A stretch of 64,000 nt of DNA, from the NCBI RefSeq assembly GCF_022012475.1, contig NZ_JAKLWS010000014.1:1-64000 (forward strand), given 5' to 3'. The DNA is from Rhodohalobacter sulfatireducens (GTDB taxonomy: Bacteria; Bacteroidota; Rhodothermia; Balneolales; Balneolaceae). This document shows, piece by piece, positions 5,637-39,499 of the stretch; position 1 is the first letter of the stretch, and every line of letters begins with the position of its first letter. The notes under the pieces were generated by a model. It saw only the letters and a program-made list of their open reading frames with translations, was not told where the DNA came from and searched no databases. The position numbers were made by a program, and so were the translations under genes.

Positions 5637-6265
5637 GATTCAAATGCACCATTTTCAGCGAATCAAATAAGCAAAAAATTACAGTTTTCACGATGCTGGT
5701 AACTAAATCTACAAAAGTAAATCAGCATGAGTAGCCCCGACTCACAAGTCGGAGACTTTGGAAATAACACGGAGAAGAACTCCGAAGGTATTCCCACATT
5801 TTATACAGATCTGAGCATAGGTAACAAGATCCAGAGCACTTGACCTTTTGAGGGTTCATCCAAATTCAAACCCATGCTTGAACGAACCGGGACTATTGCA
5901 GGCCTTCAGCCTGCCAATAGAAGGGCTGTAGGCTTCAACCCAGATCGATGCCCCGGGCTGATATAACTTAGGCTTTTCCCCAAGGGATACCTTTGGTGCA
6001 GCCTGTTGTATTTGCCATAAATCACAGGCTGAAAGCCTGTCAGATCGAAGCTTGGGGCATCGCCCCAAGTATGTACGTGAATCCCTTTGGGCAGGCTGAA
6101 AGCCTGCAATAGACGCCATATTTTAACCTCAAAATCGCTTAGGACAGTTTTGATCAACAACCATTCAATTTAGAAAAAATGGAAATATTTCAATCCAAGA
6201 AGTAAGATTAAACCAGCTTATACCATCTACCAAACATTAATCACGAATTAAATTTCAGCAGTTCA
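5637..6265. repeat. 629-nt gap filled with tight hairpins
   Basis: No real gene is seen. The stretch holds a series of small palindromes: CCGACT/AGTCGG (5737-5752), GCAGGC/GCCTGC (5894-5919), AGGCT-GAA-AGCCT (6024-6040), CTTGGGGC-ATC-GCCCCAAG (6051-6069) and GCAGGCT-GAA-AGCCTGC (6091-6107). The stems are 7-8 bp with 3-5-nt loops, and variants of AAGGGATACCTTT lie between them. Two minus-strand open frames here (5856-6160) are by-products of this repeat structure. The pattern is that of a REP-like hairpin cluster; no transposase is nearby. Confidence 0.75.
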
Positions 6266-36647: not shown

Positions 36648-37820
36648 CTACTCAAAAAGCTCCGGTTCAACAATAGAAGCCGCGATATATCGGGTAGGAT
36701 CATCATTGAGGGCATGGTTCCAATAATACACGATGACAAGTTTTCCATCTTCCCTCTGAACTATTTGCGGATAACCCACATCGCCATTGGCACCATCTCC
36801 ACTTCTCACGGGAATTTCCTGCCCCCAGGTTTTTCCATTATCAGAACTAAACCGAAGGCAAAGCCGGGAGCCATATTCACTTCGATAGGCGTAGGCAAGT
36901 GCTAGCCTGCCATCATTCATTTTTACCAAACTCGGTGGTGCACCATAGTGACCTGTATCATAGACCGGTTCGTTTTCTTCGACCCAGGTTTCACCGCCAT
37001 CCACTGAGCGATAAGCCTGCAAATAATCCCTGTCGGGATTCAAATCTCTGGCCCGAATCACCGTAAACAATTCTGATTCGCCGAACTTAACTGTAGATGG
37101 CATAATTTCAAATCCCTCGGGTTCGTCGCCCAACCAGGAAACAAGTTCCCAGTTTAAACCACCATCTACCGTTTTGGTGTGGATCACTCTCCCCTCTCTC
37201 CCGTTCTCTTTCGCAACATTCATAAATGCATGCAACACTTGCGGACCTTCAACAATATAATCCGTTCGGGTAGCAACACCTGGAGTTCCCAAATTTGGAA
37301 AGTTGTATGGACCTCGCCACTGTTTGCCCCTGTTCATCGAATAGTAAAAAGTAGATGGCCCGTCGTGATAATCATCTCTCATAAATGTGATCACAAAACC
37401 CGGATCTGTAAAATCGATGATGGGTTCTTCAAGATCTTTTGGTGCTTCGGCTTCTTCCTCCGTTAAATTATGATCGTATGCACGACCGGTTTGTCCACGC
37501 TCATAGCCATCTTCAATGGTCCAGGTTTGTCCACCATCCCGACTACGTGCATATTTATTTCGAGCGGTCTCCCTGTTGTATGTATGGAATCCTGCTGACG
37601 CCTGGAACTCGCCCTCTACAAATCCTACAAGAATTTCATCACTCCATTTCCATATTCCATTGTTGGCAGGCCATCCTGCAAAGCGACCTTCCTGGTAATA
37701 GACTTTGACGTGTAGAATTCCATTATTTTCGTGATCGTGGTCATCCTTATTCGTAATCGAATTGAAAAAGAAGAATAATGCTACGAAAAAAAGAGAGACG
37801 TATTTGAGTGATAAATTCAT
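36648..37820 (-). CDS. BNR-repeat exo-sialidase-like protein
   Basis: A 390-residue exported protein starting at the ATG at 37820 with a signal segment (about 6-24, FFVALFFFF). It folds as a six-bladed propeller with several Asp boxes: SRDGGQTW, VDGGLNWE, SVDGGETW and SSDNGKTW. This pattern is shared by sialidases and related glycan-binding or glycan-cleaving proteins; no decisive sialidase arginine triad could be assigned, so activity is open. The upstream part of the longer frame (to 37922) lies inside a mobile element and is not coding. The start is only 14 bases from the target duplication of that element. Confidence 0.82.
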   Translation of the reverse strand: MNLSLKYVSLFFVALFFFFNSITNKDDHDHENNGILHVKVYYQEGRFAGWPANNGIWKWSDEILVGFVEGEFQASAGFHTYNRETARNKYARSRDGGQTWTIEDGYERGQTGRAYDHNLTEEEAEAPKDLEEPIIDFTDPGFVITFMRDDYHDGPSTFYYSMNRGKQWRGPYNFPNLGTPGVATRTDYIVEGPQVLHAFMNVAKENGREGRVIHTKTVDGGLNWELVSWLGDEPEGFEIMPSTVKFGESELFTVIRARDLNPDRDYLQAYRSVDGGETWVEENEPVYDTGHYGAPPSLVKMNDGRLALAYAYRSEYGSRLCLRFSSDNGKTWGQEIPVRSGDGANGDVGYPQIVQREDGKLVIVYYWNHALNDDPTRYIAASIVEPELFE

Positions 37821-37833
37821 CAAATTTTTTTCT

Positions 37834-38080
37834 TTTGAGTCCCACATCTGTCCAAAACGTTTCACTCGAATCCGCGAATGCGGATCAAAAGGCACTTTCA
37901 TTGCACAACCTGACAGCACCAACCGGATCTGTCAGCGTTGTGAGCAAAGATCGTTCGACGCTGACAGGAGGTCGGAAAAAGCACCGACCACGCTGTCAGG
38001 TCGCTAAACATGCCTCACAGATTAAAAAAGCCAGATTTCTTATCATTCTGAAAACGTTTTGGACAGCTAAGTTTGAGTCC
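37834..38080. mobile_element. MITE-like insertion with 9-bp target duplication
   Basis: The direct repeat TTTGAGTCC occurs at 37834-37842 and 38072-38080. Immediately inside lie inverted ends: left CACATCTGTCCAAAACGTTT (37843-37862), and right, read in complement, CTTAGCTGTCCAAAACGTTT (38071-38052), identical at 17 of 20 positions. The 229-bp element has no coding capacity but contains internal hairpins (ATCCGC-GAAT-GCGGAT at 37870-37885, and a large one at 37956-38013). It is inserted just upstream of the BNR gene. This is the signature of a non-autonomous transposable element moved by a transposase encoded elsewhere. Confidence 0.88.
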
Positions 38081-38128: not shown

Positions 38129-39499
38129 TCAGAGTTCTTCTTTATCCACAACCTCCTCCAATACCTCACGGCTGATGCCCAGTTTCACTTCCATCTCTTC
38201 GAGGGTAATATTTTTTGTTTCGGGCATCAGTTTCCAGACAAACAGCAGTTGCAGGAACATCATAAAAGCGAAGAATGAAAATATTTGAGCTCCAGAAAAG
38301 GTACTTAAAACGGTGGGAGTTAGTAGAGTAATGAGTGCAGCAAAAATCCAGTGAGTACTTGAGCCGAGAGACATCCCGTAATCCCGAACGGCATTTGGAA
38401 AAATTTCGGAGATAAAGACCCATATAACAGCACCCTGTCCTATAGCGTGAGAAGCCACAAATGCGGTGACAAAAGCAACCACAATCACACCCTCTGCACC
38501 TGTTGAAAATGCCCAGGCAACACCCAGCAAAGACGCGATATAACCGAATGATCCTACATACATCAGCAATTTTCGGCCCGCCCGGTCAATCAGGTACATT
38601 CCCAGCAGAGTAAAGATCAAATTAACAATCCCGATCGGTACTGAGGCCCCCAAAACCTCGGTTGCTGCAATTCCGGCTTGCTCAAAAATTCGTGGAGCAT
38701 AATAGAGCACAAAATTGATTCCCGATAACTGGTTAAAAAATGCGAGTAAAAATGCCAGCATAATCGGGAATTTGAACCGGCCTGAGAAAAATTTTGAAGC
38801 CTCCGGATCAGAAGAGACGGAACTTTTTATCTCCCTCATCAACTTCTCAATATTCTCTTTAGGATTGAGTTGTTGTAAGATTTTCTTAGCCAGTGATTCA
38901 TTATTCTGTTTGATGGCCAACCAACGCGGACTTTCGGGAATTCCCAAAACAAAGAAACAGTAGATAGCCGCCGGAATTCCTTCAACTCCGAGCATCCAGC
39001 GCCAGGCGTTTTCACCAAAGCTTGCTCCTATCCAGTAATTGGACAGGTAGGCTATCAAAATTCCAAACACGATATTGAACTGGTACAGGGCAACTAATTT
39101 TCCACGGTTATTAGCAGGTGTAATTTCTGAGATATAGATCGGCGCTGCTACGGATGAAGCACCAACTCCCAAACCCCCAATGAACCTGGCAATTGAAAAG
39201 ATATAGGGATTTGGAGCAAGTCCGGAACCAACAGCAGATACAAAGTATAAAATCCCAATCCAAAACAGGGTTTTTCTCCGGCCATACTTGTCACAAGGAA
39301 TTCCCCCGAAGAGAGCTCCGATCACGGTCCCCCAAAGAGCCATCGACATAATGAAGGTTCCATGAAAAAGGTCACTCATCTGCCAAAGTTCCTGGATAGG
39401 CTGGTCGGCACCGGAAATTACGATGGTATCAAACCCAAATAAAAAACCGGCCAGTGAGGCCGCAATGGCAGACAGTGCAATAGATTTTGTTTTAATCAT
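38129..39499 (-). CDS. MFS sugar porter
   Basis: A 456-residue inner-membrane transporter of the sugar porter family with twelve predicted helices. The signatures are DKYGRRKTLFWIG (loop 2-3), GRKLLMYVG after helix 8, PESPRWL after helix 6 and PETKNITLEEME after helix 12. These are the marks of proton-coupled xylose, arabinose or glucose/fructose transporters. The N-terminal FLFGFDTIVISGA is the usual first helix. It stands between the GH32 gene and the BNR gene on the minus strand and could import the fructose or glucose released by GH32. Confidence 0.92.
   Translation of the reverse strand: MIKTKSIALSAIAASLAGFLFGFDTIVISGADQPIQELWQMSDLFHGTFIMSMALWGTVIGALFGGIPCDKYGRRKTLFWIGILYFVSAVGSGLAPNPYIFSIARFIGGLGVGASSVAAPIYISEITPANNRGKLVALYQFNIVFGILIAYLSNYWIGASFGENAWRWMLGVEGIPAAIYCFFVLGIPESPRWLAIKQNNESLAKKILQQLNPKENIEKLMREIKSSVSSDPEASKFFSGRFKFPIMLAFLLAFFNQLSGINFVLYYAPRIFEQAGIAATEVLGASVPIGIVNLIFTLLGMYLIDRAGRKLLMYVGSFGYIASLLGVAWAFSTGAEGVIVVAFVTAFVASHAIGQGAVIWVFISEIFPNAVRDYGMSLGSSTHWIFAALITLLTPTVLSTFSGAQIFSFFAFMMFLQLLFVWKLMPETKNITLEEMEVKLGISREVLEEVVDKEEL

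Follow-up and report, generated by a model that had tools for sequence, protein, structure and literature searches.

A probable IS4-family miniature element, with the remnant of a second mini-element nested inside it, between a sugar porter gene and a BNR-repeat gene of Rhodohalobacter sulfatireducens

In the IS4 family, the published spacings of the transposase are D(60-110)D(100-150)E for the catalytic residues and Y(2)R(3)E(6)K for the signature motif, and the subgroup IS4Sa is tabulated with ends of the CA------T type, a target duplication of 8-10 bp and a size of 1150-1750 bp (De Palmenaer et al. 2008, PMC2266710). Non-autonomous relatives have been described, including MIC231 of Bacillus cereus, an IS231-derived element in which IS4-family ends enclose DNA other than a transposase gene, with a target duplication outside, and which is mobilised in trans (PMC3913671). 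The BrickBuilt and MITE464/PgRS elements of Porphyromonas gingivalis are intergenic MITEs that combine the ends of a full-length insertion sequence (IS) with a repeat middle of separate origin (PMC4596501). Palindromes also serve as landing sites, several ISs having been reported to target the centres of REPs (Tobes and Pareja 2006, PMC1525189).

The element described here, from a 5.1-Mb draft genome of 138 contigs, resembles each of these systems in part. In common with IS4Sa, the ends of the MITE and its candidate parent start with CA and carry T at position 9, the duplication is 9 bp, and the parent has the expected size, YREK motif and DDE residues, but the MITE itself has no transposase gene. 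The arrangement is that of MIC231, and mobilisation in trans would presumably apply as well; the passengers of MIC231 are protein-coding, however, whereas the interior here is a non-coding hairpin repeat and the whole is far shorter. BrickBuilt joins IS5-type ends to a tandem minisatellite; in our case the ends are IS4-type, the duplication is regularly 9 bp, and the interior is a palindromic mobile element that is dispersed on its own. That inner element seems to target palindrome centres like the REP-directed ISs, but it is a non-autonomous element of about 150 bp that generates 8-bp duplications and enters unrelated palindromes.

Structure and setting of the element

The window, meaning the whole stretch of 64,000 bp that was analysed (C44:1-64000), contains the following features around the insertion.

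36648-37820, minus strand: BNR-repeat protein gene, 390 aa (Pfam BNR_2, 2.5e-15)
37834-37842: left 9-bp target-site duplication, TTTGAGTCC, an exact match to 38072-38080
37843-37862, plus strand: left terminal inverted repeat (TIR), CACATCTGTCCAAAACGTTT, identical to the left end of the full-length ISs L170 and L171
37863-37904: left arm of the MITE shell (62 bp including the TIR), from the match of MITE positions 1-40 to copies in genome G027
37905-38010: remnant of a nested mobile element with CTGACAG/CTGTCAG hairpins, copies of which occur elsewhere without IS4-type ends
38011-38051: right arm of the MITE shell (61 bp including the TIR), from the match of MITE positions 172-227 to G027 copies
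38052-38071, minus strand: right TIR, read on the minus strand as CTTAGCTGTCCAAAACGTTT, from the TIR comparison
38072-38080: right 9-bp target-site duplication, TTTGAGTCC, an exact match to the left copy
38129-39499, minus strand: sugar porter gene, 456 aa (Pfam Sugar_tr, 7.9e-107), transcriptionally upstream of the insertion

The MITE is 229 bp long (37843-38071) and is crossed only by small, chance-like open reading frames. Its TIRs agree at 17 of 20 positions, the inner 15 matching perfectly when CACATCTGTCCAAAACGTTT is set against the reverse complement of CTTAGCTGTCCAAAACGTTT, and the two copies of the duplication differ at no position. A perfect 15-bp inverted repeat with a spacing of 60-700 bp, accompanied by a direct repeat of 9 bp equally offset on either side, occurs once in the whole window and in none of 20 first-order Markov shuffles of it. 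The first-pass annotation had described the exact duplication, the 20-bp inverted ends with 17 identities, the 229-bp non-coding body and the position between the BNR and porter genes, all of which were reproduced by recomputation; the distance to the BNR start, put there at 14 bp, is 13 bp from the start codon at 37820 (minus strand) to the duplication. The strong internal hairpins that it reported are borne out by the fold of the single-stranded DNA (z = -8 against dinucleotide shuffles), but they belong to the unrelated nested remnant and not to the MITE itself.

Without the insertion, porter and BNR genes would be spaced by about 70 bp. The best named relatives of the porter are about 78% identical and come mainly from Balneolaceae (Fodinibius roseus and MAGs). 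On the transcribed strand the MITE folds well as RNA (z -6.1), and it probably sits in a porter-BNR transcript as a strong hairpin adjoining the BNR start. The A-rich stretch immediately 5' of that start is intact after the insertion. A scan of the MITE detected no sigma-70 promoter, the Bacteroidota-type TAnnTTTG motif is absent from its minus strand, and an Rfam search of it returned nothing. That the MITE might alter BNR expression is a guess.

Dispersed copies and the parent insertion sequence

The end sequence is found as facing pairs throughout the same genome, and a search for further copies, whose absence would have counted against a mobile element according to the first-pass annotation, recovered six that are complete (C43, C55, C57, C60, C90 and C94; 164-338 bp). 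Each is flanked by an exact 9-bp duplication, every one different, so that with the window copy counted 7/8 complete copies in this genome carry one; the exception, a pair on C11, is degraded. Several contigs terminate within truncated copies of the family. The pattern CANNNCTGTCCAAAACGTTT, at up to two mismatches, has 28 matches in this genome against 3 for a reversed control pattern, and it is matched in 20 of the 28 genomes of the genus, in several of which the count is not above the control. The window variant is single-copy in its own genome, the interiors of the six siblings being unlike its own, and the nearest relatives of its shell are in G027, several MITE copies of which are 82-90% identical to positions 1-40 and 172-227. 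A decayed relative of the IS4-type family was also observed elsewhere in the window (approximately 5859-6152), with a body 71-97% similar piecewise, a mutated right end (GCTTAGGACAG) and the left end lost. Comparison of the 164-bp C55 copy (L015) with its 338-bp C43 sibling (L011) showed that the former lacks the interior palindrome of the latter, and the junction points either to loss of the palindrome between short CAG repeats or to a form that precedes its gain. In other species, IS4-type-ended MITEs were seen with a different interior palindromic repeat in each (L180, L181, L182, L183, L184 and L185).

Two sister species harbour full-length ISs that share the ends of the MITE and its duplication length of 9 bp (L170, L171; 1369-1376 bp), and a parent that was formerly considered not obvious can thus be named as an IS4-family member of the IS4Sa kind. 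The copy at G004:C210 is 1376 bp long with the duplication ATCCTATAT and a frameshifted transposase gene, and that at G023:C23 is 1369 bp long with the duplication AAGTTTTTT and an intact transposase of 394 aa; the inner TIR of both is identical to that of the window MITE. The G023 transposase contains the domains DUF4372 and DDE_Tnp_1 (1.2e-28), scores 260 bits against the NCBIfam IS4 family model (cut-off 115), has the catalytic residues D127-(65)-D193-(104)-E298 and includes the Y(2)R(3)E(6)K motif as YKARWDIEIFFKEIK. With ends CACATCTGT / CATAGCTGT of the CA------T type and a 9-bp duplication, the parent appears to fit IS4Sa, a placement made by the published table and not by a tree with reference transposases. 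The sequence common to parent and MITE is limited to about 20 bp at either end, and an 879-bp copy at G019:C187, which has kept both ends and lost transposase residues 1-145, is by its structure a natural intermediate between the two. Among the genomes drawn for a family-wide search, a near-identical transposase was found in G023 only, other matches being 32-38% identical. The own assembly contains no intact IS4-type transposase, merely a remnant of 48 C-terminal residues beside one end on C81, and current mobility in this genome is accordingly best described as putative.

Since copies within the same genome carry duplications of their own and full-length ISs in sister species have the same ends, we regard the window element with high confidence as a non-autonomous IS4-family element, that is, a MITE: it is short and non-coding, has TIRs and a target-site duplication, and is accompanied by dispersed copies and by full-length ISs with its ends. 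An IS4-type transposase acting in trans would bind both ends and excise the element, which would then be pasted between the porter and BNR genes, a staggered cut of 9 bp in the target leading to the copying of those bases. An otherwise anonymous MITE is tied to a named IS family, for which a sister species supplies a candidate active transposase, and with a named parent its mobilisation in trans becomes directly testable.

Two other readings of the hairpin were weighed. A regulatory RNA or terminator of a porter-BNR operon that looks like an insertion by accident would account for the intergenic position, for the strong transcribed-strand fold (z -6.1) and for a single minus-strand site that resembles a terminator, but one such site is within chance (0.5 expected), Rfam has no match, and IS-identical ends with exact 9-bp duplications reappear at loci unrelated to one another, the duplications themselves being unrelated as well. 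Those dispersed copies with locus-specific duplications already largely rule this reading out, and we consider it extremely improbable. Rather less remote, yet still unlikely, is a mobile insertion cassette, in which the IS4-type ends are the vehicle and the hairpin repeat is a selected functional cargo such as a terminator, an RNA-stability site or a protein-binding site. The same ends do enclose several different palindromic repeats (in the own genome, G027, G023, G011, G016 and G018), two or more of the interior repeats also occur where such ends are absent, and the core folds better than shuffles in most copies. Against selected cargo, the C55 copy (164 bp) is unstructured in its core (z -0.1) and yet has a perfect duplication, from which it follows that the palindrome is dispensable for movement, and the decay of the nested copy in the window speaks against selection on it. 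The plain IS4-type MITE is the preferred reading.

Age of the insertion

The insertion into the porter-BNR site was probably a fairly recent one. The claim of a young element stands as far as the perfect outer duplication is concerned, and is tempered by the decay of the nested copy and by the search for an empty site: among orthologues in genus and GTDB genomes the two genes are adjacent in no relative, and the genomes compared yielded no base-exact empty site, either for the window copy or for a sibling. For the C60 sibling, situated between two phosphate-transport-like genes, the element is absent from the corresponding locus of G025, G023 and G017, where the spacer measures 104-176 bp as opposed to 627 bp in the own genome; because these spacers are too diverged for a base-exact comparison, only presence versus absence can be stated.

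An old and immobile MITE, with a clean duplication kept by chance or gene conversion, would agree with the lack of an intact transposase in the own assembly, with the single-copy state of the window variant and with the erosion of the nested element. It is nevertheless improbable, as the inner 15 bp of the TIRs and both 9-bp duplications are perfect, and the relative at about 5859-6152 of this window, which is clearly old, displays just the lost left end and mutated right end of an aged copy. Returning to the fairly recent insertion, the nested element would have been inside the MITE before the jump to the porter-BNR site, given that wear is seen in the nested copy but not in the outer ends or the duplication, and the composite probably moved as one unit.

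The nested element and an IS110-family layer

The window MITE is ordinary in kind, and the palindrome-seeking element nested within it is the more interesting by-product. As read from its sequence, the window element is a nested composite, an IS4-type MITE around a truncated second and unrelated mini-element. The segment 37905-38010 matches repeats of its own genome at 81% (C127) and 77% (C56) and, across own and sister genomes, is 72-87% identical to copies at sites without IS4-type ends, such repeats being present in many genomes of the genus. In the window the nested copy is truncated, has lost its own duplication and lies mid-MITE, with 62 bp on one side and 61 bp on the other; at G027:C14, a complete copy likewise lies within the palindrome of an IS4-type MITE.

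Copies that are complete measure about 150 bp, with ends GTAYnTGTTTAGCG and 8-bp duplications. Among 31 of them, parsed by script and with two loci counted twice, the duplication is exact in 12 and has at most one mismatch in 17, and 12/31 occupy the centre of a palindrome (dyad score of at least 8), compared with 1.6% of random pairings of left and right flanks. Whether this is a genus-specific miniature transposon that seeks the centres of unrelated palindromes, including other MITEs, and that itself offers a fixed landing site to an RNA-guided IS110-family IS, so that insertions stack hairpins which IS4-type MITEs carry elsewhere, is a proposal for which we judge the case evenly balanced. 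Other mobile palindromes can be stacked inside bacterial MITEs, and a mini-element with a marked preference for palindrome centres bears on the spread of REP-like repeats and on the target choice of ISs.

Three units in G027 of 1606-1607 bp (L360 136-1741, L361 129-1734 and L362 166-1772) share the ends of the nested element, are flanked by exact 8-bp duplications and code for an IS110-family transposase. They were considered as the autonomous parent of the nested element and rejected, since each is a 152-bp nested element whose CTGACAG hairpin has taken up an IS110-family IS. When the units are aligned to the 152-bp element, their matches on the left and right add up to 154, which equals the complete element and a 2-bp CT overlap. 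Descent of the nested element from an IS110 DEDD transposase element is likewise not borne out, the full 152-bp element flanking the IS. The simplest reading of the alignment would be an IS of about 1454 bp at a fixed site in that hairpin, and the finding that two different variants of the nested element in G027 have been hit suggests repeated site-specific insertion. IS110 elements are not known to insert with 8-bp duplications; judging by its 8-bp duplication and GTA ends, the parent of the nested element may be IS66-like, which we take as a lead. Insertion into the CTGACAG hairpin agrees with the CT core and REP targeting of IS621 (PMC11208160).

Mosaic units of 330-993 bp were also observed in G027 (L364, L365 and L366), with chained GTAYnTGTTTAGCG ends, irregular duplications and no transposase. 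At six loci (L294, L301, L303, L291, L299 and L282), the flanks place the element of about 150 bp at the centres of unrelated palindromes, with 8-bp duplications.
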